A DNA stretch of 36,626 nt, from the IMG/VR virus record IMGVR_UViG_3300042892_005955, positions 1 through 36,626 of that record, one strand, 5' to 3'. The translations under genes were made by a program, and so were the position numbers. This DNA comes from a virus. Positions within the stretch are counted from its first letter, which is position 1. Every line of letters starts with the position of its first letter. The notes below the pieces were generated by a model. It worked only from the letters and a program-made list of their open reading frames with translations, was not told where the DNA came from and ran no database searches. This document shows positions 1-16,308 of this stretch, in pieces.

Positions 1-792
1 TCAAGATGAGGAATTTTTGTTAGTAGGTAAAACATCATTTTTAATTAAGAAATATTTTATGAAAAGACCCGGAACATCCCACTCCCACCATTTTACTTTA
101 TAGTAAGGACTTGAACTATTTGCATGATGATTGTTATGTAGGCCACTACCCAACATTAGTATATTCATCCAAGTATTATTTCTACTGTTGTCAGGTGTGT
201 CAAAATTTCGATAACCCCATTTATGACCTACAATGTCTACAAGTATACTACTAGTGTGAAAAGTCCAAACGGCACTTGCACTTATTAAGAACAACGCTAT
301 TTTGTAATCAAATAAAGCAATAATACCGTAAACAACAAACACAAACTCAAGATAGTGTTTATGTAAAAGCACATGCAATCGATCTTTAGTTAAGTCCGAT
401 ACTAACTTAGGAGAGAACTTAACTTTTGGCCAGTTAACTAACCAAACATCATACCATTTATTATGAACAGGTGATTGAGGATCTTTGGTTGTATCAGAAT
501 ATCGATGATGTATTCTATGACCACCTACCCATCCGTAACTACTACCAAGACAAGTCATGGCACCAAGAAGTATTAAGATTATTTCTTTCCAACGAGCAGT
601 TTCAAAACTTCTATGAGCAGTTAGTCTATGATATCCAATCTCACCGCCAATCTTTCCAAAGAGAATCCATCCTGCAAGAGTAAACCAAAGATAAGATAAA
701 TCCCATTGAATGAAAAATAATGTAAGTAGAACAAGATGATGGAAAACAATCAATATCTTGAATTGTATGTCCATGTTAGGTTTTTTAATCAT
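1..792 (-). CDS. Membrane fatty acid desaturase-like protein (copy 1)
   Basis: A membrane di-iron desaturase of the acyl-CoA/acyl-lipid delta-9 type (PF00487 family). Enzymes of this family use O2 and an electron donor to put a double bond into an acyl chain. All three histidine boxes are visible: HRLTAH at 55-60, HRIHH at 92-96 and HNNHH at 219-223. Hydrophobic segments lie around residues 15-50, 70-90 and 150-185. At 263 residues it matches short bacterial members, and no cytochrome b5 or other redox domain is fused. Its ATG overlaps the stop of the upstream hydroxylase-like gene by 4 nt, so the two are probably translationally coupled. It is most like copy 2 (shared GKIGGE..G..HR and HKWGYRNF segments). 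The substrate cannot be read from sequence; hydroxylase activity on a non-lipid substrate is possible in this superfamily. The stop codon is at the very start of the window. Confidence 0.9.
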   Translation of the reverse strand: MIKKPNMDIQFKILIVFHHLVLLTLFFIQWDLSYLWFTLAGWILFGKIGGEIGYHRLTAHRSFETARWKEIILILLGAMTCLGSSYGWVGGHRIHHRYSDTTKDPQSPVHNKWYDVWLVNWPKVKFSPKLVSDLTKDRLHVLLHKHYLEFVFVVYGIIALFDYKIALFLISASAVWTFHTSSILVDIVGHKWGYRNFDTPDNSRNNTWMNILMLGSGLHNNHHANSSSPYYKVKWWEWDVPGLFIKYFLIKNDVLPTNKNSSS

Positions 793-1610
793 AGTCTCTC
801 CTTAATCCGTGGCCCGTTGTATTTACTGATAGACCTTTCTATCAACTCCTCTAATTTTTTGTTCGTAGTCGTGTCGCTATATAATGCAATATCTAATCTA
901 TCTTGGTCACTATAATTTTTCATGGCATGTGGATATAAACTATTGAAGTAGTATGCTTTTCCAGGAACAAAACTTCCTACATATGAATCAGGGTCGTTCT
1001 TATAAAAATCCAATGATTCAAATTTACTACGATTAGAAGGCATATTTTTACTAACCAAGAAAGCAACATCTTTATGTTGTCTAATAGGTATATGTATTAT
1101 GCACTGTTCAGGTTTGTTATACTGTTTAATCACTGGATCGGCTTGATGACTATGCCATCCTAACCAGTTACCGGGTTTAGCTTTAATCAACTTACACAAA
1201 CTAGGATGATCTGTTATCTCGCTAACTAATTTCATTAAATATGGGTACTTTAGTGATTCGGATGTGTAGTGCCATGCTCTATCTTTTATATCCACATCAT
1301 AATAATGTGTAATTTTTGACATGTCGCCGTTATCGCTCCAGGCAAAAGTTTCAGATACAATGGACGGGTGATTTTTTGGATGGTATGTAATTAAAGTGCA
1401 GTGTTCATAGTTATCATATATTTTTTTAGAATCAGAATGATTTTCTATACCAAGCAGTTGCAGATTTGTCGGAGTCATAAACGGGGCAACATAATTATAC
1501 CAATTATTGTTTGCCGAGTCCGCTTCTTGTAATAAGCATTCTATATCTATTTCGATGTCCAATTCCATATATGGAATCTCTCTAAGAGAATCAATTAGGT
1601 GCTGTTTCAT
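789..1610 (-). CDS. Aspartyl/asparaginyl beta-hydroxylase-like oxygenase
   Basis: Probable 2-oxoglutarate/Fe(II)-dependent oxygenase of 273 residues. The C-terminal half has the cupin-type pattern: WHSHQ at 152-156, a beta strand IIHIPI at 171-176, then a distal His (H228 in YPHAM) and an Arg (R238) ten residues later that would bind 2-oxoglutarate. No clear HxD carboxylate ligand is present, which fits the aspartyl/asparaginyl beta-hydroxylase group, where AspH binds iron with two histidines. The N-terminal 120 residues match nothing I recognise. The gene sits between two desaturases, overlapping the upstream one by 20 nt and the downstream one by 4 nt, so the three are very likely one transcript. 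The substrate is unknown; a desaturate-then-hydroxylate pair is an inference from context. Confidence 0.7.
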   Translation of the reverse strand: MKQHLIDSLREIPYMELDIEIDIECLLQEADSANNNWYNYVAPFMTPTNLQLLGIENHSDSKKIYDNYEHCTLITYHPKNHPSIVSETFAWSDNGDMSKITHYYDVDIKDRAWHYTSESLKYPYLMKLVSEITDHPSLCKLIKAKPGNWLGWHSHQADPVIKQYNKPEQCIIHIPIRQHKDVAFLVSKNMPSNRSKFESLDFYKNDPDSYVGSFVPGKAYYFNSLYPHAMKNYSDQDRLDIALYSDTTTNKKLEELIERSISKYNGPRIKERL

Positions 1611-2367
1611 GTTTAATTAAGAAATATTTAATAAAAAGTCCCCATATGTCCCATTCACCGGGTTTCTGTACATATGTGTAATCTCCCGGGTTACCATGAT
1701 GATTATTATGCAATCCACTGCCACCAGTAAAAATGTTTACCCATATATTGTTTCTACTTTGATCAGTTGTTTCAAAATTTCTATATCCCCACTTATGACA
1801 AACAATGTCTATCAATAACGAACCCACATGAAATTGTGTGAACGCGGGTAATACTATCATAAAAATTAACAAGGTGAAATCAATAGCACCTATTGACAAT
1901 AAGACTAACAGACACAACTCAAAATACCAACGATGTATAAACATGTGCCATGGATCTCTAACTAAATCCGATACGTATCTAGGCTTAATGATAAAGGGCT
2001 TCCAATCAAGTGCCCAAATTTTAATCCAGTGTTGTTGATACGGGCTGTGTGGGTCTTCTGGTTGATCCGCATTAACATGATGAGTTCGATGTGTTCCGAC
2101 CCAGGACAATGTACTACCGACCATGTTTAGGCTACCTAGTATTAACAACACTCTTTCTTTCCATTTTTCTGTTTTAAAGCTTTTGTGAGAAAAATATCTA
2201 TGGAAGCCAACCTCCCCGCCTATTTTACCAATCAATATCAGTGATACAATAAAAATTATCCAATGGTACCATGCTGGTGAGGCAAAAAAGAACGCAAGAA
2301 ACAACAGTATGTGATTGGTAATCAATACAATTCGTAATTTGGTTATAATCGATAGAAAGTTAAACAT
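1591..2367 (-). CDS. Membrane fatty acid desaturase-like protein (copy 2)
   Basis: A 258-residue membrane di-iron desaturase-like protein with complete histidine boxes: HRYFSH at 56-61, HRTHH at 93-97 and HNNHH at 220-224. Hydrophobic spans around 12-50, 72-90 and 150-185 fit the usual four-helix membrane topology. It is clearly a relative of copy 1 but not a recent duplicate, as many positions differ. It is the first gene of a three-gene minus-strand unit (desaturase, hydroxylase-like, desaturase). A GATAAATAC motif about 30 nt upstream of the ATG could be its promoter. No strong Shine-Dalgarno sequence precedes the ATG. No electron donor such as ferredoxin or rubredoxin is encoded beside it, so host redox proteins would be needed. 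Confidence 0.9.
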   Translation of the reverse strand: MFNFLSIITKLRIVLITNHILLFLAFFFASPAWYHWIIFIVSLILIGKIGGEVGFHRYFSHKSFKTEKWKERVLLILGSLNMVGSTLSWVGTHRTHHVNADQPEDPHSPYQQHWIKIWALDWKPFIIKPRYVSDLVRDPWHMFIHRWYFELCLLVLLSIGAIDFTLLIFMIVLPAFTQFHVGSLLIDIVCHKWGYRNFETTDQSRNNIWVNIFTGGSGLHNNHHGNPGDYTYVQKPGEWDIWGLFIKYFLIKHETAPN

Positions 2368-2396
2368 GCTGAATAATAGGAACTAAATATGTGAAT

Positions 2397-2405
2397 GTAT
2401 TTATC
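2397..2405 (-). promoter_or_regulatory. T4-late-like promoter motif GATAAATAC
   Basis: GATAAATAC on the minus strand lies about 30 nt upstream of the ATG of the minus-strand desaturase (copy 2), in a 61-nt divergent intergenic region. It resembles the T4 late consensus TATAAATA. Similar motifs occur in the other two divergent gaps of this block. Assignment as a late promoter is inference. Confidence 0.45.
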
Positions 2406-2428
2406 ACCCCCTTATATCACAAAATAAT

Positions 2429-3973
2429 ATGCACGGTTTAATGTTAACAGGATTTATGTCAACTTTTGGTAAGTCTGGTTATCGGCGCACCGCCGGCGCA
2501 CATAGAATTGCAACTCACTTGAGACAACTAGGTTGGGATATTGAGGTTTTAGATTTTGTTATGGGCTGGTCATTAGAACAACTCAAAGAATTCACGGTTT
2601 CTAGAGTTACATCATCAACAAAATTTATCGGATTCGGGGGTACATTTCCTATATGGAGTCCGGTACTAGACTCATATTTCACATGGGTCAAAGAAAAATA
2701 TCCAACCGTTAAAATAATTGCCGGCGGTCAAATTAGCAATCTATACAAGATAAAAGCAGATTGGTATATTGATGGTTTTGGTGAAAGAGCGATTGTAGCA
2801 TTATTGAAACACCTGACAGGCAACAGCTCAGAAAAACTAAAATATCAAATATTTTCAAACGGTAGAAAAATAATAAAAGGAAACTTAGATTACCCTTCGT
2901 TCCCCATGAAGTCACTGTCAATTAAATATCAGGACAGAGACTTTATAAATCAACATGAAACTTTGGTCACTGAACTGGGTAGGGGATGTGTGTTCAACTG
3001 TAAGTTTTGTAATTTTCCAATACTAGGAGTTAAAGAAGATCACTCCCGAGACGCTGAAGATTTGTACATAGAACTACAAGACACATATGATAGATACGGC
3101 GTAACGTCATATCATTTGGCGGACGAAACAGTCAATGACTACACTGAGAAATTAGAAAAGTTTGCCGGGGCCGTACGGAGATTAAATTTTAAACCATCAA
3201 TGGTTGGATTCGCTAGAGCCGACCTATTTGCTTCCAGGAAGCAAGACTGGGACATCATGATGGAGATGGGCTTTGTGGGGCATCATTATGGAATTGAGTC
3301 TACCAACATTGATTCTCTAAAAGAAGTAGGCAAGGGGATGCATCCAGATAAATTGCTATCGGGATTACTTGAGGGGCGTGAGTACTTTAAAAAACACGGA
3401 GCATACAAAGGACAAGTGAGTTTGATTGCCGGATTACCGCATGAAACATCAGCGAGTTTGGAAAAATCATTGACTTGGTTCAACAACAACTGGAAAACAG
3501 AAAGTATAATGTTATTTCCGTTGTACATTCCAAAGAATGATGGCAAAGATACTGCATCAAAATTGACATTAGAATGGGAAGAACAGGGATATAGAGAAAC
3601 GCCAACAGACTTATTTCCTAGTATACTTAGGAAATATTCTAAGCTACCATCTCAGTATGGTGTAGGTGATAGCTTATTAGAGCATACCGGGTTGAGTTGG
3701 GAAAATGATATTTGGAACATAGAAGAAGTATATAAAAGAATTTTTGATTTTTATATGTCACCAAATTACAGCACTGTGTACGGACCAGTAGTGTGGAGTG
3801 TTTCAGAATGGATGTTAGCTTTTGAAAAGCCATTTGAATATTTCATTGACAAAACTATTGCTGATATCAAATCCGAACAACAAGTTTCAGGAATCATGTT
3901 AGAATCTGTTATCAGGAAACAACAACACTTGATACAAAGTTACATCACAAAGAAATTAAATTGGAAAGCATAG
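2429..3973 (+). CDS. Radical SAM protein with B12-binding-like N-terminal domain
   Basis: A 514-residue radical SAM enzyme. The [4Fe-4S] cluster motif CX3CX2C is at C187, C191 and C194 (GCVFNCKFC). The first 150 residues have the layout of a cobalamin-binding Rossmann domain seen in B12-dependent radical SAM methyltransferases and related enzymes, including a KIIAGG strand end near 95-100 and DGFGE at 115-119, but the classical DxHxxG cobalamin motif is not visible. Enzymes of this class often methylate unreactive carbons or rearrange carbon skeletons; the substrate here is unknown. The gene stands alone on the plus strand, divergent from the desaturase unit, and ends inside a strong inverted repeat that probably terminates transcription. 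No clear ribosome binding site precedes the ATG. The IscU and MetK genes elsewhere in the window could support its cluster and SAM supply. Confidence 0.85.
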   Translation: MHGLMLTGFMSTFGKSGYRRTAGAHRIATHLRQLGWDIEVLDFVMGWSLEQLKEFTVSRVTSSTKFIGFGGTFPIWSPVLDSYFTWVKEKYPTVKIIAGGQISNLYKIKADWYIDGFGERAIVALLKHLTGNSSEKLKYQIFSNGRKIIKGNLDYPSFPMKSLSIKYQDRDFINQHETLVTELGRGCVFNCKFCNFPILGVKEDHSRDAEDLYIELQDTYDRYGVTSYHLADETVNDYTEKLEKFAGAVRRLNFKPSMVGFARADLFASRKQDWDIMMEMGFVGHHYGIESTNIDSLKEVGKGMHPDKLLSGLLEGREYFKKHGAYKGQVSLIAGLPHETSASLEKSLTWFNNNWKTESIMLFPLYIPKNDGKDTASKLTLEWEEQGYRETPTDLFPSILRKYSKLPSQYGVGDSLLEHTGLSWENDIWNIEEVYKRIFDFYMSPNYSTVYGPVVWSVSEWMLAFEKPFEYFIDKTIADIKSEQQVSGIMLESVIRKQQHLIQSYITKKLNWKA

Positions 3974-3991
3974 ACTGTGTACAGTCTATGC
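3968..3991. terminator. Bidirectional terminator-like hairpin
   Basis: A perfect 10-bp inverted repeat (arms GCATAGACTG and CAGTCTATGC, loop TGTA) sits between two convergent genes. The TAG stop of the radical SAM gene is inside the left arm. On the plus strand it is followed after about nine bases by a run of six T, as in an intrinsic terminator. On the minus strand it is followed by TTTCC, so it may serve both directions. Confidence 0.75.
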
Positions 3992-3997
3992 AGTTAA

Positions 3998-4885
3998 TTA
4001 TTTTTTGTTAAAAAATGATGATCTTTCTGATAGTGTCAATCTCTTATAATCAGAACCTGTCAAATTTTTGTTCGCTATAAAAATTCCTTGCTCACTGAAT
4101 TTATTTTTCAATACAGCGGAATCCATCACTTTAGACAATAGCATTGTTTGGTTTCTAACAGATTGTTGATCCATCGACGGACTCACTACAAATCCAAATC
4201 TACCTGCCGGCGTCGTAAACATCGGAATAGCAGGAACATTGTCAATGCGTATATTATCGTCTAGATTAGCAACTAATCTTACTGCCCCACTGTCTATTTG
4301 CTTTTTTACGGCTGTGTAGGGTACTATCACGTAATCAATATGTTTCCCCATTAAATCTACTATTGCAGGGCCCACTCCCTTATAAGGTACGTCTATTGCC
4401 GCTTTTGCCTGCATGTGGGCAATTAAGTTTTTTGTTACAAATGCGTTTCCTAACGCTCCGCTACCAAATGTCACTTTATCATTTTTAATGTTATCTAGAA
4501 CACCTGACAACGATCTGGTATTTTCTACATGCGTCAATAGAACTAGAGGACTTTCCCCTATCATTTTTATGTATATCAAATTCTCCGGATCATATTTTAC
4601 TACGTTTTGATCTAGCATATTAGTATGTACCAACTGTGATTGTGATGCCAAACATAATACTCTAGGGTCTGCATTTTTAATGCATTCATTCATAGCTACT
4701 ACGCCGCCGGCGCCGGGCTTGCTAATTATAACTGCGGTGTGACCTAACTCAGTTATAGCCTCTTCGACTAACATCCCTACGATATGTTGTCCACCGCCCG
4801 GCGGGAATCCTACTAGTATATTATATTGTTGCGCATGTGCAATGCTATTAAAAGCAAGCAAAACCATTAAAAAAATTTTCTTCAT
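3998..4885 (-). CDS. TctC/Bug-family periplasmic solute-binding protein
   Basis: A 295-residue protein of the tripartite tricarboxylate transporter substrate-binding family (TctC, or Bug receptors). In bacteria these bind carboxylates or other small solutes in the periplasm and deliver them to the TctAB membrane proteins. Residues 1-18 are a typical Sec signal peptide (MKK, hydrophobic core, AHA just before QQ). The family hallmarks follow: GFPPGGGQ at 26-33, SKPGAGG at 55-61 and a VPYKG segment in the middle. Length is slightly below the usual 310-330. No TctA or TctB is present, so it is an orphan receptor. It has its own GAGG-type ribosome binding site and follows the first PP-loop gene by 59 nt. 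The family is hugely expanded in Burkholderiales, hinting at the host from which it was taken. Its role in infection is unknown. Confidence 0.88.
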   Translation of the reverse strand: MKKIFLMVLLAFNSIAHAQQYNILVGFPPGGGQHIVGMLVEEAITELGHTAVIISKPGAGGVVAMNECIKNADPRVLCLASQSQLVHTNMLDQNVVKYDPENLIYIKMIGESPLVLLTHVENTRSLSGVLDNIKNDKVTFGSGALGNAFVTKNLIAHMQAKAAIDVPYKGVGPAIVDLMGKHIDYVIVPYTAVKKQIDSGAVRLVANLDDNIRIDNVPAIPMFTTPAGRFGFVVSPSMDQQSVRNQTMLLSKVMDSAVLKNKFSEQGIFIANKNLTGSDYKRLTLSERSSFFNKK

Positions 4886-4944
4886 TTAGTGTACCTCATT
4901 AGTGTTTTTCTCTGTATATAATTTATCTGTGAATAGTAGTACCA

Positions 4945-6057
4945 TTAAATATTCCCAACTTTATATCTTCGAGATAGAAGGCCTTGCATTTCATTTTTAG
5001 CGGCGGATATCCATTCTTTATGCAGGCCTCGCCAGTTATCTATGTAGCTTTTAAACTCAGGTCTAGTTAATAAGTATAGGTCTCTGGATCTACCAGCATC
5101 GTTAACCGCGACGGGTTTATTCGCTTGAAACTTAGTTTGATCCCAAGTTGTGTATATTAAAGGTATCGTTAATCTACGCATTTGTTCGAGTCGATCATCA
5201 TCGTTTCTTTTAAATATTTTAATATCATGCAAGTGTCTCAGTTCAGGATGTAATTTAAAGTATTCCAATAATCTATAAGACTGTTCAAATACAATGTCGG
5301 GCATGTCAGGAGTCCAATAGAAAAATTCAGCTACGTTGTTCATACACAGTCTCTCTTTTGTATCTTTAGCCACTACGTTTGCTGCTCTATCGTGAAAAAA
5401 CAAATAAAACTGATTGTCTTCTGAAAACACCTCAGGCTTATCTACACCATATATCTCGCATACTTTTCCTGTTTGTATAAGTAAGCTGTCTGAAAAGGTA
5501 CGTTGTCTCATAATCTCAAATGCACCTAAGTAATGACCAGTAACAAAAAAAGTATCATCGTTGAGTTTTGATTTAGGATCATTTTTAAAAATATCATCTA
5601 TTTTTATCTTAATGTTCGGGTGTTCTTTAGCTAACCAGTCTAACGTTGGTTTGATACAAAAGTCCCATTCAGAAAATATATTTTCTGCACCTGTAATAGT
5701 TGTGTTTGGTGTGTACAGTTTACTTTCAACTGAGTGACTGTATTTCACATATACTTCATCCAAATGAATATTGTTGTTGATAAATGTCATTAAAATGTTA
5801 TGACTGTCTGGGCCACCACTGTAATTTAAAATTAAATAGTCATACGTGTCTCTAAGCTGTTGGGCACGTTCTTTATAAAGTGTATCCAGTGGCCTCTTAC
5901 CTAAGGTATGTAATCTATTTTTAGAAAAGTTTTCCCACACTTCGTTGTTAAAAGACCATTCTATTTTTTTACCACTGATGCTAGAGTCATAAAGTGCATG
6001 TGATTTATTATAATAGAATTTACCATCTACAACGTAGTGACCTAAATTTTGTTCCAT
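4945..6057 (-). CDS. PP-loop ATPase superfamily protein (first copy)
   Basis: A 370-residue protein with the PP-loop signature SGGPDS at 80-85, preceded by a hydrophobic strand (YLILNY). This is the ATP-pyrophosphatase fold of asparagine synthetase, GMP synthetase, QueC and thiolation enzymes, which activate a substrate by adenylation. The rest of the protein does not match a specific family I can name, so the acceptor is unknown. The start chosen is the ATG at 6057; a longer reading frame begins at 6108 but would extend into the start of the divergent Rieske gene, and the shorter start sits just behind a GATAAATA motif. A second PP-loop gene lies 0.9 kb away across the Rieske gene. A role in amide or thio-group formation together with the neighbouring oxygenases is speculative. 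Confidence 0.7.
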   Translation of the reverse strand: MEQNLGHYVVDGKFYYNKSHALYDSSISGKKIEWSFNNEVWENFSKNRLHTLGKRPLDTLYKERAQQLRDTYDYLILNYSGGPDSHNILMTFINNNIHLDEVYVKYSHSVESKLYTPNTTITGAENIFSEWDFCIKPTLDWLAKEHPNIKIKIDDIFKNDPKSKLNDDTFFVTGHYLGAFEIMRQRTFSDSLLIQTGKVCEIYGVDKPEVFSEDNQFYLFFHDRAANVVAKDTKERLCMNNVAEFFYWTPDMPDIVFEQSYRLLEYFKLHPELRHLHDIKIFKRNDDDRLEQMRRLTIPLIYTTWDQTKFQANKPVAVNDAGRSRDLYLLTRPEFKSYIDNWRGLHKEWISAAKNEMQGLLSRRYKVGNI

Positions 6058-6060
6058 GTT

Positions 6061-6070
6061 GATATTTATC
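6061..6070 (-). promoter_or_regulatory. T4-late-like promoter motif next to a start codon
   Basis: GATAAATATC on the minus strand ends 3 nt before the ATG of the PP-loop gene. If it works like the T4 late element (TATAAATA at -13 to -6), transcription would begin at about the A of the ATG, giving a leaderless mRNA. This is inference from spacing only. Confidence 0.4.
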
Positions 6071-6087
6071 GAGAGATACATACACAA

Positions 6088-6096
6088 ACTAAATAT
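6088..6096 (+). promoter_or_regulatory. Possible late-type promoter for the Rieske gene
   Basis: ACTAAATAT on the plus strand lies 4 nt before the ATG at 6101 and is a weaker match to TATAAATA. With T4 late spacing the predicted transcription start is again at the ATG. Weak on its own, it is recorded because the same arrangement occurs on the facing gene. Confidence 0.3.
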
Positions 6097-6100
6097 TCGT

Positions 6101-6952
6101 ATGTTCAAGCACCCACCTAAAATCTTAGCGCATCGATCGGCAGTTAAAAATGGTAATTTTGTAACTCCTAAGTATATCTTAGGAAATGATTCAGAATACT
6201 TATTTAATAGATATTGCCCACATAGACGTTATCCAATGAATGAAGTGGGCGATGTATTGAAAGAATCGATGCTATGCAACTTTCACGGGTTTGAATGGGA
6301 CTTGAAGGGTGTACCTATCAATAACGATAGGCACATTAACTGTGGCAAAATGTCTACTGGGAAATCCGGATTACTATTCAAAGACTTTGTAGAGCCTGAA
6401 CATAAATGGGTTGATGATCTAGCCGGTGAAACATCACTAGAATACAGCCATGTACGTACCGGAACTAGTAAGGGCAGTTGGTTATGGATGATGGAAATAC
6501 AAGCTGACCTGTTGCATATACGACAGGGTAAAGATGCAGTACATCCCAACCTCAGTGAAGTAACCAATCTAGATAGCACTATACTGAATCAAGGAGATGG
6601 TTGGGCGTTACAAATTTGTAGTACTGGATGGTGGTTGTGTATCTATCCCTTTACGTTTGTAGAGTACAGTCAAGGATGTTTAGCTATAAATTGCACAACT
6701 CCACATGATATGAATAACGAATTTGGATTCGACTGGCACACTCAATACTATTTCAGACCAGAAATATCAACAGAACGTAGGGATGAATTTGAGTTTTATG
6801 TTGAACCAGTGTTCAAAGAAGATGTGGTAGCTATTGAAAAGCAAAAAGGGCCCTGGTTCCCAATTACAATTCCCTATAATAGACTAGAGGAACATTGTGT
6901 TCATTACGGGAAGTGGATCATGGCAAACAAAGTGCGTCAACAATCTCAGTAG
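6101..6952 (+). CDS. Rieske [2Fe-2S] non-haem iron oxygenase
   Basis: A 283-residue Rieske-type oxygenase. The Rieske cluster motif is complete: C39-P-H41, 17 residues, then C59-N-F-H62. The C-terminal part looks like a mononuclear iron catalytic domain, with a D..H pattern (ADLLH) and a second His nine residues on, and a later EDVVAIEKQKG segment typical of Rieske oxygenase alpha subunits, which supplies the Asp ligand. Such enzymes hydroxylate, demethylate or desaturate using electrons from a reductase that is not seen here. I chose the ATG at 6101 because an upstream in-frame ATG at 6056 would overlap the divergent PP-loop start. The last 35 nt overlap the convergent second PP-loop gene. 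The substrate is unknown. Length is short compared with the usual 330-450. Confidence 0.8.
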   Translation: MFKHPPKILAHRSAVKNGNFVTPKYILGNDSEYLFNRYCPHRRYPMNEVGDVLKESMLCNFHGFEWDLKGVPINNDRHINCGKMSTGKSGLLFKDFVEPEHKWVDDLAGETSLEYSHVRTGTSKGSWLWMMEIQADLLHIRQGKDAVHPNLSEVTNLDSTILNQGDGWALQICSTGWWLCIYPFTFVEYSQGCLAINCTTPHDMNNEFGFDWHTQYYFRPEISTERRDEFEFYVEPVFKEDVVAIEKQKGPWFPITIPYNRLEEHCVHYGKWIMANKVRQQSQ

Positions 6953-7793
6953 GAGTATATTTTTGAATGACACTGTTGATGGTACTACAGTAGTGTTTGT
7001 CAAACTCTAACATATATTCTGGTTTGGATTCTTTTGATGGAGTTAAATCTTTCTCAAACCCTACCATTTTAGCTCGTATGATAATATCATCCCACTTGGC
7101 TTGATGTATCAAAGCTTTGCTACTAACTGTTGACGTTTTACCCGGGACTTGATTGTTTATCAGTTGCTGTACTCTAGGTAGTTGCATGTAACTTAATATA
7201 ACTTCAGGTCTGTATTCATACCAGTCTGTTATTGCTGTTCTACCTATTGTTTTATGATAGATTGTCCAAAATTTAGCATCTTCTTCTAGTTCAAATACCC
7301 AATTTTCGTCATCTTGTTTTTTCCAGTATGGCTCTCCACTAGCTATAATAGGAGTATTGTCTAAGTATTCAGTTAATTTCATGTGCGGCAACCAACTGCT
7401 ACTAGTAGTCTTACACATAGACCAAATGTCATACGCATCATTCTCAAAGAATCGTTTCACATTAAAATCAATGACTGTATGTTTAACATTTAAATCCGTA
7501 CACACTTTAATAGCATGGTCAAATTCACGATAATTGAGCATGTCCTCATACTTAAATATGAAAACATTTATAGGTATCTTTAATTCTCTATATGTTCTTA
7601 AAACAACTTCGCTATCGATGCCACCGGAAAACATCAAATCTAATGGACCAGATATAATGTCTCTAATGTTACGTGCGTTTTCAAATAATTCATCATGGTA
7701 ATTCATGAGCGGTTGAGTTACTGTTTGCTTTAATACAAATTTAAAATCATCACCTTTACCTTGCCAAGCCAACCAATTGTTTTTATAAAACAT
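6918..7793 (-). CDS. PP-loop ATPase / asparagine synthase-like protein (second copy)
   Basis: A 291-residue protein carrying the PP-loop motif SGGIDS at 56-61 after a hydrophobic strand (LDLMF). The following strand-helix pattern (INVFIFKYED, then a helix and VKHTVIDF) is typical of the asparagine synthase C-terminal domain and related adenylating enzymes. No glutaminase domain is present, so free ammonia or another amine would be the nucleophile if it forms amides. It follows the desaturase copies 3 and 4 by only 4 nt and probably shares their transcript. Its 3' end overlaps the Rieske gene by 35 nt on the opposite strand. It is not a close copy of the other PP-loop protein. The exact reaction cannot be named from sequence. 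Confidence 0.72.
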   Translation of the reverse strand: MFYKNNWLAWQGKGDDFKFVLKQTVTQPLMNYHDELFENARNIRDIISGPLDLMFSGGIDSEVVLRTYRELKIPINVFIFKYEDMLNYREFDHAIKVCTDLNVKHTVIDFNVKRFFENDAYDIWSMCKTTSSSWLPHMKLTEYLDNTPIIASGEPYWKKQDDENWVFELEEDAKFWTIYHKTIGRTAITDWYEYRPEVILSYMQLPRVQQLINNQVPGKTSTVSSKALIHQAKWDDIIIRAKMVGFEKDLTPSKESKPEYMLEFDKHYCSTINSVIQKYTPTEIVDALCLP

Positions 7794-7797
7794 TAAG

Positions 7798-8568
7798 TTA
7801 TTTCCGTATTAGTTGTATAATCAAACCAGAGATGTCAAATTCCCACCATTGTTTTTTAAAGGTATAGTCTTTGGGAAATCTATGATGATTGTTATGCCAG
7901 GATTCTCCCCAACTTAGAATAGCCCATAACCAATTATTTGTGCTTTGGTCGTTTAGATTATAACTACGATACCCACCTAACCAACTAGGTTTATGACCAA
8001 CGTAATTGACTACATTACTCATCAATCCTGTTACTAATGCAGGAGTCCAATGCAAAAATAGCATTAAATAAAATCCACCAATAATAAACAATAATACGCT
8101 GTAAGCAATATTAATTGCAAAGTAATATCTATGCAGGAACTGTTGGAACTTGTCTGTAACTAAACCACGCATACGCCACTTGGTATCAATGTTTACTTGA
8201 TCCACGTAGTCTAATTTAAATATCTTAATGCCCTTGTGCAAAGGACTGTGAGGGTCATCGGGTTTGTCAGATTTTAGATGATGATTAATATGGATAGCGA
8301 CCCAAGCCAATGGACTACCGGTGCCTGCAAAACATCCCAATACACTAAAAATCTTTACTAATAAAGGTCTTGCTTGATAGCTATTGTGAGTAAGGTGTCT
8401 ATGATAAGTTATTACAATACCCAAACACCCGTATACGAAATAACCCAACAATATCAATAATAGATTGTTAACCGTCACTCCATACGTAGCAAATGCAAAC
8501 ACAGTACCCAATAATGCTATTATCTGAAAAAGTTGGGCTCCTCTTGTGCTACTTGCAAAAAGATTCAT
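7798..8568 (-). CDS. Membrane fatty acid desaturase-like protein (copy 3)
   Basis: A 256-residue membrane di-iron desaturase-like protein. The histidine boxes are HRHLTH at 56-61, HINHH at 93-97 and HNNHH at 225-229. Hydrophobic spans at about 12-55, 70-90 and 150-190 fit the family. It follows copy 4 with no spacer, its ATG touching that gene's stop region, and precedes a PP-loop gene by 4 nt. Copies 3 and 4 share SPL.WV before the second box and STNN before the third, and form a pair distinct from copies 1 and 2. Compared with copy 4 it has HKPSWLGGYRSY in place of the HMNGYRNF type segment, suggesting a different substrate pocket. The substrate is unknown. Confidence 0.9.
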   Translation of the reverse strand: MNLFASSTRGAQLFQIIALLGTVFAFATYGVTVNNLLLILLGYFVYGCLGIVITYHRHLTHNSYQARPLLVKIFSVLGCFAGTGSPLAWVAIHINHHLKSDKPDDPHSPLHKGIKIFKLDYVDQVNIDTKWRMRGLVTDKFQQFLHRYYFAINIAYSVLLFIIGGFYLMLFLHWTPALVTGLMSNVVNYVGHKPSWLGGYRSYNLNDQSTNNWLWAILSWGESWHNNHHRFPKDYTFKKQWWEFDISGLIIQLIRK

Positions 8569-9321
8569 TTATTTGTCACTCCTTATAACGTTGATTAACC
8601 TACAGACAGGATCAAATTCATTGTTCTTTACTGTTGTACAGACCTTTTCAGCATGGGCATGATGATTATTATGCCATGCATCACCTAATATAAAAGGCCA
8701 TAGATATACATTATTTGTACTACGATCCTTTGTGACAAAGTTTCTGTACCCATTCATGTGGCAGAAGTAGTTGAACATCGTCTGAGATATACTTACTATG
8801 AATACAGGTATAGCCCACATGTAAATAACCAAGCTATAGTTTACGATACTCAATACCAGTAAAAATGCTAGTATTATCAATAGATAGTACTTGTCTATTT
8901 TTAAATGTACAGGTGTCAATAATTCTTTAACTACAAAAGGGTTAAATTTAGTGTCTGTAGGTTTGAAACCCACAATGCTAAAGTCTTTATTGTGAGGACT
9001 ATGAGGATCTTTTTCTGTATCTGAGGTAGCGTGATGTATTCTATGAATATATACCCAACCTAATGGGCTGCCTCGTCCGGCTAATACAGCAAATATAGTG
9101 AAGAACCATTTAGATAAAGTGTCTAACTTAAAACTCTTATGACTATAATAACGGTGTAACATCATACTGATACCCAAAATACTATAAGAGTAAAACATGA
9201 TTATTGCTAACAGAACATATTGCCAACTAAACGCCGCAACAAAGGGGCTTGCCAACAATATTACCAATGATAATAATTGTATTATTCGTAGGGAGTTAGG
9301 GGACGATGAAAATATATTCAT
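8569..9321 (-). CDS. Membrane fatty acid desaturase-like protein (copy 4)
   Basis: A 250-residue member of the membrane di-iron desaturase family with HRYYSH at 56-61, HRIHH at 93-97 and HNNHH at 217-221. Two long hydrophobic regions (about 15-55 and 145-185) fit a four-helix membrane protein. It is the first gene of a minus-strand unit: desaturase 4, desaturase 3, PP-loop ATPase. A palindromic GATAAATACC element ends 2 nt before the ATG, so the mRNA may have no leader; no Shine-Dalgarno sequence can fit there. The C-terminus ends shortly after the third histidine box, as in the other three copies, so none carries a fused electron donor. Confidence 0.9.
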   Translation of the reverse strand: MNIFSSSPNSLRIIQLLSLVILLASPFVAAFSWQYVLLAIIMFYSYSILGISMMLHRYYSHKSFKLDTLSKWFFTIFAVLAGRGSPLGWVYIHRIHHATSDTEKDPHSPHNKDFSIVGFKPTDTKFNPFVVKELLTPVHLKIDKYYLLIILAFLLVLSIVNYSLVIYMWAIPVFIVSISQTMFNYFCHMNGYRNFVTKDRSTNNVYLWPFILGDAWHNNHHAHAEKVCTTVKNNEFDPVCRLINVIRSDK

Positions 9322-9323
9322 CA

Positions 9324-9342
9324 GGTATTTATCATAAATACC
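9324..9342. promoter_or_regulatory. Palindromic back-to-back late-promoter-like element
   Basis: GGTATTTAT-C-ATAAATACC is a perfect 9-bp inverted repeat around one central base, in the 35-nt gap between divergent genes. Each half reads as a T4-late-like ATAAATACC element for the gene on its own side. It could be a divergent promoter pair or an operator for a dimeric regulator. The minus-strand copy is 2 nt from its ATG, the plus-strand copy 14 nt from its ATG. Confidence 0.5.
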
Positions 9343-9356
9343 GTTGGGAACAATAA

Positions 9357-9866
9357 ATGCAAGATGAATTATTTTTTAACACTGAATTTTCACCTACCGG
9401 TATATTAGATAAATTATACCAAGAAGCCAGCGTAGAGGAAAATTATTATTGGAGTCCGGCTCAGCCCCCAGTTATGAGATGTGATGTAAGTGATGAGATA
9501 AGAGATTATTTTAAAAGATTAATAAATGTCCCATTCAATGATTGCGGGTTATTGAAAACTTACCCAAATACTATCTATCCAATACACAAAGATTCATTTA
9601 GAATCACAGCATTAAACATGACATTGATGGATGATAATCCAGACTTTGTGACTCAAGTAATAGGGGTAAAATTTGGTAAAGTACATAAGTATCCAGTTAC
9701 TTATGTAAGAAATGAATTTACTATTCTAAACGTATCTCAATTGCACCATGTCACTAATAAAAGTCAGACATTGACTAGAACCATACTTAGTATGGGATTT
9801 AAAGAATGTGATTATTCAACCTTGTTGCGCCTTCAATTAGAGGGAAAATTGTTCAATGATATATAA
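9357..9866 (+). CDS. 2OG-Fe(II) oxygenase-like protein (first of tandem pair)
   Basis: A 169-residue protein with the facial-triad layout of 2-oxoglutarate/Fe(II) oxygenases. The HxD motif is H77-K-D79 (YPIHKD), the distal His is H130 or H131 (QLHHVTN), and R141 follows at the expected distance for 2-oxoglutarate binding. The double-stranded beta-helix core appears complete though the protein is small. It begins a plus-strand run of four overlapping genes; its 3' end overlaps the next oxygenase gene by 11 nt. Such small oxygenases are common in T4-like phages, usually with unknown substrates. Proteins, lipids or nucleobases are all possible targets. Confidence 0.68.
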   Translation: MQDELFFNTEFSPTGILDKLYQEASVEENYYWSPAQPPVMRCDVSDEIRDYFKRLINVPFNDCGLLKTYPNTIYPIHKDSFRITALNMTLMDDNPDFVTQVIGVKFGKVHKYPVTYVRNEFTILNVSQLHHVTNKSQTLTRTILSMGFKECDYSTLLRLQLEGKLFNDI

Positions 9867-10401
9867 AAAGATAGATGTACCAAATTTAGAGGTAATGATC
9901 AGTGAGATAATGACAATGGTCAGTCCGCAAATATCACAAAATCTCAGATACTGGGATCTTCCAATAACAGATTTTTATAAATTAACCCCTACCTTTTTTA
10001 AGTATATTACAGGAAAAACTTTTTGTAGTATACCTAAACAGTTTAGATTCTATAATACTCCACCGTACGGCACATTAGGCCCGCACATTGATAATCTTGC
10101 GACTGCACCAAATAAGATTGGTTTCAATATACCACTGAGTGGTACTAAAAATACTCACATGAATTATTATACGACACCCGAGGATAACGTATCTATTAGT
10201 TTAGCCGGCGGGTTTGGCTCTGTGCCGGCGCAAATAATTAAAGACAATACTAGATTAGTGTTGATAGATAGTATAGAAATTGACAAGCCTACAGTTCTTA
10301 GAACGGATTTGATACATGAAGTAGTAAATCCAAATAATTCGTACAGGTTAGTATTAGGAATGAAATACATTGGTAAACAAGTTGAGGATATACTAGCCTA
10401 A
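9856..10401 (+). CDS. 2OG-Fe(II) oxygenase-like protein (second of tandem pair)
   Basis: A 181-residue protein with a likely facial triad: H77-I-D79 in the GPHIDN segment, the distal His H154 (DLIHEVVN) and R164 ten residues later. It shares the layout of the preceding gene, with HxD at the same residue numbers, but the rest of the sequence is very different, so they are not recent duplicates. It overlaps the preceding gene by 11 nt, and its TAA shares one base with the ATG of the next gene. An iron-dependent hydroxylase is the most likely function; the substrate is unknown. Confidence 0.68.
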   Translation: MIYKKIDVPNLEVMISEIMTMVSPQISQNLRYWDLPITDFYKLTPTFFKYITGKTFCSIPKQFRFYNTPPYGTLGPHIDNLATAPNKIGFNIPLSGTKNTHMNYYTTPEDNVSISLAGGFGSVPAQIIKDNTRLVLIDSIEIDKPTVLRTDLIHEVVNPNNSYRLVLGMKYIGKQVEDILA

Positions 10402-11015
10402 TGATTTCATTAAAATTATATTCGGCTTTATCTATAGAAGAAATTAAAAACTTCTATGACTTTCTTGCATCTATTCAATCTGAAGGCTTGCCCGCAGGTA
10501 CTAATATGTGGGATAATAATTGGGAATCAAACAACGAAACTCTGCCTTTTATTTTAGAAAAAACTGATAGATTTAATAGGATCAAAGGTGATTACCATAT
10601 AATATATGATGGATCAACAATCATAGCATGCGGTGGCGTGTACATTAGTGATTTTTCAAATAGAATAGCAATCGGAGGCGTGAGAACCTGGGTAACTAAA
10701 GAGTATCGCAATAATAGCATACTTAGAGAATATCTATTACCAGCACACAAACTATGGTGCCAAGAAAGAAACATAGATATACTTGCACTTACCTTTAATG
10801 AATATAATAAAAATCTTCCCCAAGTGTTTAAAAGAAGAAGATTAGGTGAGTCTATCGAAAGAATCACAACAAGAGAACCAAAGCATTTGTTTTACTCGGG
10901 CTTAATCGAGGTTCCGTTTGCAATGTCTATTCAATATACAAAGCAATGGTTAATCTATGAAAGATTGTCAGATTGGGATTTCGATTGGAAAACTATTGAG
11001 TGGAAAAATGATTGA
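10401..11015 (+). CDS. GNAT-like acetyltransferase
   Basis: A 204-residue protein resembling GNAT N-acetyltransferases. A central strand (HIIYDGSTIIACGGVYI, around 70-85) is followed by GGVRTWVTKEYRNNSILREYLL, which has the shape of the V-x-x-x-x-R-x-x-x acetyl-CoA-binding segment, then a helix and a beta strand (ILALTFNEYNKNLPQVFKR) with the asparagine-rich turn typical of the fold. The classical RxxGxG loop is degenerate, so an acyl donor other than acetyl-CoA, or loss of catalysis, is possible. It starts on the stop codon of the oxygenase gene and overlaps the next gene by 8 nt, which points to co-translation of the four-gene plus-strand unit. Confidence 0.5.
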   Translation: MISLKLYSALSIEEIKNFYDFLASIQSEGLPAGTNMWDNNWESNNETLPFILEKTDRFNRIKGDYHIIYDGSTIIACGGVYISDFSNRIAIGGVRTWVTKEYRNNSILREYLLPAHKLWCQERNIDILALTFNEYNKNLPQVFKRRRLGESIERITTREPKHLFYSGLIEVPFAMSIQYTKQWLIYERLSDWDFDWKTIEWKND

Positions 11016-11553
11016 TAGCTTTAGTCACGGGCAAATAGGTAGCAAATTGTGGTTATGTGAGCAATTAGAACCTCACATTAAAAACAATGCTACTGTTGCC
11101 ATATTAGGTAGTTGGATAAATGTATTAGGGTTTATGTTGTTGACTAGACAACCCTACAAGTATTCACATATTAAGGGCATAGACCTAGACATTGAAGCTG
11201 TCAATACTGCTAATCAAATTTGCAATTACTGGTATATTAATGGTATACAACACTCAATACAAGACAATGCAAACACAGTATCGCTTCAAGGATTTGATGT
11301 TGTGATTAATTGTAGCAGTGAGCATATGGAAGGATCAGATTGGTTTGATAACATTAGCTCGGGTACGCTTGTATGCATACAGTCTAGCAACGTCACAGAC
11401 ACAACTGATCCATGGTTTGTTAAAAACCCCAGTCATAATATCGATGAATTTCTTTCAAAATACCCACTACGTGAGATAATATTTTCAGAAACTCTACCGA
11501 TAACCTATGAGAACTGGGGTTATGATAGATATATGGTAATCGGTATCAAATAG
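11008..11553 (+). CDS. Putative SAM-dependent methyltransferase-like protein
   Basis: A 181-residue protein with a Rossmann-like core: a strand and glycine turn (VAILGSW), an acidic strand end (GIDLDIEAV) where a methyltransferase would hold the SAM ribose, and a later strand FDVVINCSSEHM. The pattern fits a class I methyltransferase but the glycine-rich motif I is weak, so this is tentative. I use the ATG at 11008 rather than an in-frame ATG at 10957, because the longer form would overlap the GNAT-like gene by 59 nt and add residues unlike the rest. The 3' end overlaps the convergent ahpD-like gene by 8 nt. Confidence 0.45.
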   Translation: MIDSFSHGQIGSKLWLCEQLEPHIKNNATVAILGSWINVLGFMLLTRQPYKYSHIKGIDLDIEAVNTANQICNYWYINGIQHSIQDNANTVSLQGFDVVINCSSEHMEGSDWFDNISSGTLVCIQSSNVTDTTDPWFVKNPSHNIDEFLSKYPLREIIFSETLPITYENWGYDRYMVIGIK

Positions 11554-12103
11554 ACACTTTGCCAATTGCGTGAATTGTTGCCGCAATCTTGCCGATATGA
11601 TGCAACTGTTGAACAGTTACTCCTTCTTTCTTTAATGTGTCATAGTGTGACTTAACACAGAAATGGCACTTGCCGATTATGCTAGCGGCTAGTGAGTACA
11701 TCTCAAACTTTACTTTAGTTGTACCACCGTGTGTTGCATATGCATTCATGCGCAAACCTGCAGGCAAACCCTTAAGGTCAGGGTCGCCGGACATCTCTAC
11801 GAATGGATACCAAATGTTGTTTTGACCCATAAGTGCGGCTGCTGTTTTTGCCGCTTCACGTTCTTTTTCTGCGGTGAACAACGGGCTATTCATTTCAATT
11901 TCAAATGCTAGCCCACCGTTACCACTAGCCAATGCAGCCACATATGCAACTGCGTGTGTGTCTACTGGATCTAGTAAACTGCGATTGATGACCGCGTCTA
12001 CATTTAGACGAATATCTTTAGCGTGATCAGGGATACTATCTTTAACGCTATCTACCCAATTTCCACCGATTGTGATCGGTTGTACTGATGCCATTGCTTC
12101 CAT
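11546..12103 (-). CDS. AhpD-like alkylhydroperoxidase
   Basis: A 185-residue protein of the carboxymuconolactone decarboxylase/AhpD family. The active site matches mycobacterial AhpD in spacing: E134, then C146-HF-C149 twelve residues on, then H153. In Mycobacterium AhpD this CxxC pair carries electrons from lipoylated proteins to the peroxiredoxin AhpC, and has weak peroxidase activity itself. An AhpC homologue lies 3.6 kb away on the same strand, which makes a working AhpC-AhpD pair plausible. The ATG at 12103 has an AAGGAG ribosome binding site 6-7 nt upstream. It is the last gene of a long minus-strand operon. The phage may use it to buffer oxidative stress in the infected host. Confidence 0.88.
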   Translation of the reverse strand: MEAMASVQPITIGGNWVDSVKDSIPDHAKDIRLNVDAVINRSLLDPVDTHAVAYVAALASGNGGLAFEIEMNSPLFTAEKEREAAKTAAALMGQNNIWYPFVEMSGDPDLKGLPAGLRMNAYATHGGTTKVKFEMYSLAASIIGKCHFCVKSHYDTLKKEGVTVQQLHHIGKIAATIHAIGKVSI

Positions 12104-15732: not shown

Positions 15733-16308
15733 TTACAGAGTCTCACCACCGATTGGGCGTGAGCATGGGCATAGTTCACCAGTTTGCAATGCGTCTAGTA
15801 CACGTAATGTTTCTTCTGGGTTACGACCAACATCTAAGTTATTAACTGTGATGTGTTGAATAACGTTCTGTGGATCAACAATAAATGTTGCACGTAGTGC
15901 CGCACCTGCTGGAGCATAGAATACACCTAATTGTTCAATCAGGCTGAGGTTTTCATAGCGGCCGGTGTCTTCATTATACTCACTGCTACGGCGTTGTGTG
16001 TCAGCGAACTGATGATGTGTAATCTTCTTCAAGTCCGCATGTGCGTTTTGCCAAGCCACTTTACAGAACTCGTTATCTGTGCTACCTGTTAGCAATACTG
16101 CATCACGGTCAGCAAAGTCTTGTGTTAACTTGTCATATGCTACAATCTCTGTAGGACATACAAATGTAAAGTCCTTAGGGTAGTAAACAATGATTTTCCA
16201 CTTGCCTTCAAATGATTTTTCTGTGATTGTATAGAATGCATCTTCTGGTTGTCCTGGTTTGACACCAGTGATTGCAAATGCTGTTAATTTATCTCCGACT
16301 GTTTTCAT
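15733..16308 (-). CDS. ahpC: 2-Cys peroxiredoxin AhpC-like
   Basis: A 191-residue typical 2-Cys peroxiredoxin. The peroxidatic cysteine is C51 in FTFVCPTE, preceded by YYPKDF. The conserved Arg lies in the AALRATFIVDP segment, and the resolving cysteine is in ELCPCSRP near the C-terminus (C180 or C182). It reduces hydrogen peroxide, organic peroxides or peroxynitrite. No AhpF is present; the AhpD homologue at the end of this operon is the likely local reductant, as in mycobacteria, although host thioredoxin could serve. The ATG has an AAGGAG ribosome binding site. The 115-nt region upstream is the longest gap in the window, so this gene probably has its own promoter. Confidence 0.93.
   Translation of the reverse strand: MKTVGDKLTAFAITGVKPGQPEDAFYTITEKSFEGKWKIIVYYPKDFTFVCPTEIVAYDKLTQDFADRDAVLLTGSTDNEFCKVAWQNAHADLKKITHHQFADTQRRSSEYNEDTGRYENLSLIEQLGVFYAPAGAALRATFIVDPQNVIQHITVNNLDVGRNPEETLRVLDALQTGELCPCSRPIGGETL

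Follow-up and report, generated by a model that had tools for sequence, protein, structure and literature searches.

An enzyme cluster at the left end of a viral contig

IMG/VR record IMGVR_UViG_3300042892_005955, a linear virus record of 36.6 kb (36,626 nt), was analysed over its whole length, which is called the window below. The subject of this work is the block of enzyme genes in its left 11.5 kb (1-11553). A preliminary description had listed here four di-iron desaturases, three 2-oxoglutarate (2OG)-Fe(II) oxygenase-like proteins, a Rieske oxygenase, a radical S-adenosylmethionine (SAM) enzyme of the B12 type, two PP-loop ATPases, a GNAT-like and a methyltransferase-like protein, and had proposed that they form a biosynthesis-like cluster. 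All open reading frames listed for the block were found at their positions (Table 1), and the inventory was confirmed on the whole, the exceptions being the weak assignments of OX1 and of the methyltransferase. It was also incomplete: a TctC-family solute-binding protein and an AhpD-like protein had been overlooked. The right two thirds of the window consist of phage genes (ribonucleotide reductase, PAAR, endolysin, an IscU-like scaffold, MetK, heptose and nucleotide-sugar genes), and heptose, nucleotide-sugar and glycosyltransferase genes border the cluster.

Table 1. Genes of the enzyme block and its right-hand neighbour, in the order of their positions in the window
Gene	Positions	Strand	Assignment	Evidence or remark
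D1	1-792	-	membrane di-iron fatty acid desaturase	Pfam PF00487, E 1.3e-18; gene reaches the window edge
OX1	789-1610	-	plausible 2OG-Fe(II) oxygenase, family uncertain	between D2 and D1; H228, R238 kept
D2	1591-2367	-	membrane di-iron fatty acid desaturase	Pfam PF00487, E 3e-17; three His boxes
RS	2429-3973	+	radical SAM enzyme, putative B12-binding type	Pfam Radical_SAM, E 7.8e-10
TctC	3998-4885	-	TctC-family solute-binding protein with signal peptide	Pfam TctC, E 3.5e-19
PP1	4945-6063	-	PP-loop (ATP pyrophosphatase) enzyme, phage-wide family	SGGxDS motif
RIE	6056-6952	+	Rieske non-haem iron oxygenase	Pfam Rieske, E 1.8e-6
PP2	6918-7793	-	AsnB-like PP-loop ATPase, core	Pfam Asn_synthase, E 1.8e-7; also QueC match
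D3	7798-8568	-	membrane di-iron desaturase, core	Pfam PF00487, E 3.8e-18
D4	8569-9321	-	membrane di-iron desaturase, core, apparently virus-specific clade	Pfam PF00487, E 6.5e-14
OX2	9357-9866	+	2OG-Fe(II) oxygenase-like	HxD...H...R motif
OX3	9856-10401	+	2OG-Fe(II) oxygenase-like	HxD...H...R motif
GNAT	10401-11015	+	GNAT-fold acyltransferase, core, apparently virus-specific	AlphaFold2 model
MT	10957-11553	+	possible class I methyltransferase, accessory	Pfam MTS, E 0.0048, below cut-off
AhpD	11546-12103	-	AhpD-like CMD protein beside the cluster	Pfam CMD, E 1.8e-11; CxxC-x3-H in the sequence

Co-occurrence of the cluster genes in viral contigs

D4 and GNAT were used as two independent baits on IMG/VR contigs. 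Near-identical contigs were removed and loci were kept only if about 8.5 kb was available on both sides; 18 distinct viral contigs drawn in by the radical SAM gene served as controls. Near D4 (25 distinct viral contigs) D3 was present in 23, PP2 in 24 and GNAT in 22 contigs. Reciprocally, D4 was found in 20, D3 in 21 and PP2 in 19 of the 21 contigs collected with GNAT. None of the control contigs contained D4, PP2, GNAT or PP1, and D3 was detected in one of the 18. An unrelated oxygenase family (f27ox), included as internal control, occurred near D4 in 6/25 contigs as compared to 6/18 in the controls. In 40 of 49 contigs D4 was followed by D3 in the same orientation, at most four genes away and often with a 4-bp overlap. 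The co-occurrence observed with both baits relative to the controls, together with the coupling of D4 to D3, shows that D4, D3, GNAT and PP2 are inherited together and form the core of the cluster. These data strongly support the proposed biosynthesis-like cluster as a real unit and not a chance pile-up.

The preliminary description had suggested a search for co-occurrence of the families in the same order, and had named a lack of co-occurrence in related phages as grounds for refuting the cluster. The genes did co-occur in related phages, so that the cluster withstood this test; the order of the whole set was not conserved. Conserved order was limited to D4-D3, PP1-TctC and D2-OX1-D1, and the remaining genes were shuffled. 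The accessory, shuffled genes include RS, RIE, PP1-TctC, OX2, OX3, a PF04116 fatty acid hydroxylase and a nitronate-monooxygenase-like protein, among others; the methyltransferase-like gene was present in 7 and the AhpD-like gene in 9 of the 25 D4 loci. When single PP2 or D1 sequences were used as bait in viral contigs, no match was obtained. A link to the phaseolotoxin/Pbo cluster, which had emerged from a word search, was rejected, as the gene list of that cluster has only broad families in common with the present one.

The order D2-OX1-D1 was the same in the window and in contigs L074 and L144. In the latter two the genes that come next encode an oxygenase-like protein, a further desaturase, a ketoacyl synthase and a small protein (the L074 relative of D1 is 77% identical). 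Since the left boundary of the window coincides exactly with the stop codon of D1, the left module of the window is probably truncated at this gene.

Properties of the core enzymes

All four desaturases of the preliminary description were borne out: they matched Pfam FA_desaturase with E values between 1e-18 and 6e-14, and D1-D4 all possess complete H-x4-H, H-x2-HH and HNNHH boxes (HRLTAH, HRIHH and HNNHH in D1). The boxes of D4 were invariant across 22 sequences, and in a phylogenetic tree the D4 sequences were monophyletic (41/41, support 0.987).

The two PP-loop ATPases were likewise recovered, PP2 by its Pfam match and a structural model, PP1 by an SGGxDS motif that was conserved in 19/19 relatives. 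AlphaFold2 models of PP2 and GNAT were built from alignments of their own relatives. That of PP2 (predicted local distance difference test score, pLDDT, 90.7) was nearest to the folds of beta-lactam synthetase, NAD synthetase and LarE, and also to that of asparagine synthetase B. PP2 shares with beta-lactam synthetase and asparagine synthetase B the ATP pyrophosphatase fold and the SGGxDS motif, at 12-14% sequence identity. Unlike these enzymes, however, PP2 (291 amino acids) has no N-terminal glutaminase-type domain and matches the synthetase part only. In 26 relatives S56, G57, G58 and S61 were invariant, and K242, G245 and E247 nearly so.

GNAT had no Pfam match. Its AlphaFold2 model (pLDDT 90.6) displayed a GNAT fold, consistent with the earlier assignment, and the fold matches included PaiA and the N-acyl amino acid synthase FeeM. 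The match to FeeM (E 7e-5, rank 46) was accompanied by only 7% sequence identity. As ordinary acetyltransferases were placed higher in the fold ranking, a FeeM-like acyl specificity is not established.

Carrier proteins, ketoacyl synthases and ligases

In agreement with the preliminary description, no acyl carrier protein (ACP) is encoded by the window fragment. This does not hold for its relatives, which encode ACP, AcpS and FabF-like synthases. Among 50 cluster contigs, which are not all independent and are of unequal lengths, ACPs (PP-binding, E down to 2e-15) were found in eight and ketoacyl synthases in five, as compared to 0/28 controls in both cases. AcpS, counted in the cluster contigs only, was present in four, all of which also encode an ACP; 11 of the 50 contigs have at least one of the three. 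In several contigs the ACP gene is close to genes of the cluster: contig L055 has an operon of the composition GNAT-ACP-PP2-GNAT-like-desaturase, in L159 the ACP gene is located directly upstream of PP2, and in L040 an ACP gene adjoins a desaturase gene with AcpS nearby. The extreme case was L220 (IMGVR_UViG_3300013006_001903, 52.6 kb), where one strand carries, between positions 1172 and 11999, genes for nine desaturases, every one with complete histidine boxes, alongside those for AcpS, an ACP, a ketoacyl synthase, a RimK-like ATP-grasp protein and an aminotransferase-like protein. D3 and D4 lie further on and raise the number of desaturases in this contig to eleven. L220 is classed as viral by IMG/VR; no structural hallmark gene was seen in the parts examined.

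Fatty acyl-AMP ligases, reported as missing by the preliminary description, were indeed absent from the gene list of the window. AMP-binding proteins were detected in 6/50 cluster contigs and in 3/28 controls; because this is no enrichment over the controls, acyl-AMP ligases were dropped as a component of the system. To probe for a signalling system, LuxR-type regulators were looked for; only 2/50 cluster contigs had them. LuxR-type (GerE) DNA-binding domains were located at G007:C1:41097-41204 and G024:C1:57389-58426.

Allele exchange, selection and carriers

L040 was the contig most similar to the window in the core genes, with identities of 97% for OX2, 95% for OX3, 92% for GNAT, 86% for D4 and 77-78% for D3. 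Beyond D3 this contig also carries RIE, PP2, PP1 and TctC, but for RIE, PP2 and PP1 the identity to the counterparts in the window drops to 23-30%. Given 77-97% identity in one part and 23-30% in the other, the set of activities has been conserved through an exchange of alleles. Ratios of nonsynonymous to synonymous substitution rates (dN/dS) in comparison with L040 were 0.08 for GNAT, 0.11 for OX3 and 0.13 for OX2, indicating purifying selection on these genes; synonymous sites of D3 were saturated.

T4-type gp23 major capsid protein was found on seven contigs of the D4 and GNAT scans, five of which are 250-355 kb long. The window is a fragment, and the gp23 assignment rests on these other cluster contigs. 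A pattern-based search of 84,980 bacterial and archaeal genomes yielded no relative of GNAT and three relatives of D4, none of them more than 31% identical, so that no close cellular homologue of the kind expected of a host-derived desaturase was encountered; as short exact patterns were used, distant cellular relatives may be missed. At this sensitivity D4 and GNAT appear to be virus-specific. Isolate phages gave no DNA match to the left 8 kb of the window and no protein match to PP2 or GNAT; the D4 protein matched only Pelagibacter phage Mosig (26% identity). On balance we favour a modular biosynthetic cluster, specific to viruses and located in a variable region of T4-like, often giant, phages, of which the block represents one allele.

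Accessory oxygenases and the radical SAM enzyme

The claim of three 2OG-Fe(II) oxygenase-like proteins held for two. In OX2 the motif H77-x-D79...H130...R141 was kept in at least 21 of 22 relatives, and in OX3 H77-x-D79...H154...R164 was invariant in 33/33. OX1 retains H228 and R238, but has no clear HxD and matched no Pfam or PHROG family at a meaningful score, and is therefore regarded as plausible only. The Rieske oxygenase was well supported: besides the Pfam match (Table 1), the closest solved relative of the family profile was carnitine monooxygenase (E 4e-16), and residues C54, H56, C74 and H77 as well as D151, H154 and H163 were invariant.

In the RS family the CxxxCxxC motif was invariant in 63/63 members. 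The best NCBIfam matches were to families of B12-binding radical SAM enzymes, the PhpK P-methyltransferase subfamily and TIGR04072 (lipid B12-radical SAM). These partial matches cover part of the N-terminal region and all fall far below the curated cut-offs. Membership of RS in the PhpK P-methyltransferases was rejected (55 bits as against a cut-off of 600). Several contigs that have no desaturase cluster (L008-L013) carry three RS-family radical SAM genes in tandem.

PP1, the solute-binding proteins and the right-hand neighbours

PP1 had no Pfam match and belongs to a large family (at least 535 relatives in viral contigs). A solute-binding protein gene was adjacent to PP1-family genes of phages in 52 of 103 cases, and directly downstream in 31. 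PP1 genes (window; L141-L219) are often translationally coupled to genes of TctC-type solute-binding proteins. Because this coupling is seen across phages in general, PP1-TctC may be a separate module. The TctC protein of the window, which has a signal peptide, has the N-terminus MKKIFLMVLLAFNSIAHA. Phage DctP-family (TRAP) solute-binding proteins (L053:7598-8530, L143, L165, L196, L212) differ from the adjoining TctC proteins, which have signal peptides, in that they start within the mature domain and lack such a peptide; this suggests that the DctP-family proteins are used in the cytoplasm. Genes for a cytochrome P450 (L190:14111-15259) and a TauD-type dioxygenase (L206:4653-5483) were also observed near PP1 genes in viral contigs.

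The methyltransferase-like protein of the preliminary description must be regarded as a weak assignment (Table 1). The AhpD-like protein and an AhpC-type peroxiredoxin (15733-16308) form a pair that was found near the cluster in several relatives. Judged from family functions, the pair could clear peroxides, perhaps those formed from lipids or by the enzymes of the cluster, and the neighbouring MetK and IscU could provide SAM and Fe-S clusters.

A proposed acyl pathway and its alternatives

The pathway is likely to be one of acyl and amide chemistry. We think it somewhat probable that the cluster introduces double bonds into a fatty chain, oxidises it and couples it to a partner through amide chemistry. 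The pathway would start from a fatty acyl chain on the ACP of the host or, in some phages, on the phage's own ACP. The chain would be desaturated by D4 and D3 (and D1 and D2), and the 2OG-Fe, Rieske or fatty-acid-hydroxylase enzymes would hydroxylate it or oxidise it in other ways. GNAT would join it to an amine or amino acid by N-acyl transfer, and PP2 would adenylate a carboxylate, leading to amide formation. The predicted product, an acyl amide or aminolipid that is both unsaturated and oxidised, would vary between phages. Support for such a pathway comes from the reciprocal co-occurrence, the D4-D3 coupling, the kept catalytic residues, the purifying selection, the ACPs, AcpS and ketoacyl synthases of the cluster contigs, the ACP operons, contig L220, the PP2 fold and the allele exchange seen in L040.

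Several points weigh against it. ACP, AcpS and ketoacyl synthase belong to the accessory genes, being absent from the window and from the majority of cluster contigs, even from some of 250-350 kb. AMP-forming ligases were not enriched. GNAT could move acetyl instead of long acyl groups, and the target of amide formation by PP2 could be a protein or some other substrate. Moreover, PP1, TctC and the radical SAM enzyme have no explained place in the scheme.

Alternatively, the desaturases might only raise membrane unsaturation during infection, the other enzymes being unrelated neighbours in a gene-collecting variable region. Phage desaturases with a proposed membrane role have been published (PMC7300359, PMC7678222), and the region resembles the variable region described for pelagimyophages (PMC7029224). 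Nevertheless, PP2 and GNAT accompany D4 and D3 as tightly as the desaturases accompany each other, f27ox was not enriched under the same conditions, and up to eleven desaturases per contig exceed what fluidity would need; we consider this explanation unlikely. The adjoining heptose, nucleotide-sugar and glycosyltransferase genes of the window could also point to modification of acyl chains of host lipopolysaccharide or lipid A, or of another envelope lipid, which would block superinfection or alter receptors, and envelope lipids are known to be tailored by 2OG oxygenases and GNATs. However, most cluster loci lack the heptose block, no lipid A acyltransferase-like gene was seen, and no role in such modifications is known for PP-loop or radical SAM enzymes, which makes this, too, improbable.

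Transfer into phages of a genuine bacterial-type natural-product cluster for a polyyne or polyene, with an antimicrobial as its product, would account for the many desaturases found together with ACP, AcpS and ketoacyl synthase, most of all in L220 with its run of nine. The lack of an enriched acyl-AMP ligase, the additional GNAT and PP2 in the core and the failure to find close cellular homologues of the core render such an origin quite improbable. Hypermodification of DNA, RNA or protein seems very improbable: PP-loop, radical SAM, 2OG-Fe(II) and GNAT enzymes all occur in nucleic-acid modification pathways, but the partners that recur most regularly here are multi-pass membrane desaturases, whose histidine boxes are of the stearoyl-CoA-desaturase type, relatives add ACP, AcpS and ketoacyl synthase, and no nucleic-acid-binding domain was found.

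The phage could benefit from the acyl pathway preferred here through an altered membrane or envelope, by excluding other phages or by releasing a compound. As a tentative extension, which we regard as doubtful, giant T4-like phages might own a diversifying specialised-metabolite pathway with no recognisable cellular ancestor, whose polyunsaturated acyl amide, secreted or membrane-bound, would act on competitors, other phages or the host community.

Relation to known systems

Metabolic genes of phages are usually viewed as single genes borrowed from the host in support of replication. Here a multi-enzyme set with apparently virus-only core families is conserved across divergent phages, and the same modular set recurs in dozens of uncultured T4-like phages from water, some of them giant. 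Tailoring enzymes are exchanged as in a natural-product cluster, and some phages bring their own carrier protein and its activating enzyme, which would imply that these phages make a dedicated acyl compound. With no cellular counterpart and no published description found, the product may represent a new viral way to reshape or attack the surroundings. The four-gene set of D4, D3, GNAT and PP2 is small enough for direct expression and analysis.

Bacterial polyyne clusters of the caryoynencin/cepacin type combine several membrane desaturases with an ACP, and a fatty acyl-AMP ligase is their defining enzyme. The phage cluster resembles them in having several membrane desaturases, four in the window and up to eleven in a relative. 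An ACP is absent from the window and occurs in 8/50 cluster contigs. The phage cluster differs in that the defining ligase was not found as part of it, whereas GNAT and an AsnB-like enzyme are missing from the polyyne plan.

A search of the open-access literature yielded no description of the cluster as a system, although parts of it have been noted before. Freshwater pelagimyophages were mentioned, in one sentence of the sections of PMC7029224 considered here, as having fabF, stearoyl-CoA desaturase and 2OGFeDO as lipid biosynthesis genes. These, too, are T4-like phages that combine a ketoacyl synthase with a desaturase and a 2OG oxygenase and possess a variable region with radical SAM cassettes, but those sections describe no cluster, core partners, ACP or AcpS. 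Phage-encoded fatty acid desaturases were reported by Roitman et al. 2018 (cited in PMC11480375) and, as Arctic vFADs, in PMC7300359; in the papers considered here they are treated as genes serving membrane unsaturation. These enzymes are like the present ones in belonging to PF00487, in coming from aquatic viruses and in having intact histidine boxes. The desaturases of the cluster differ from them by their number, two to eleven per phage, and by their fixed partnership with GNAT and a PP-loop ATPase.

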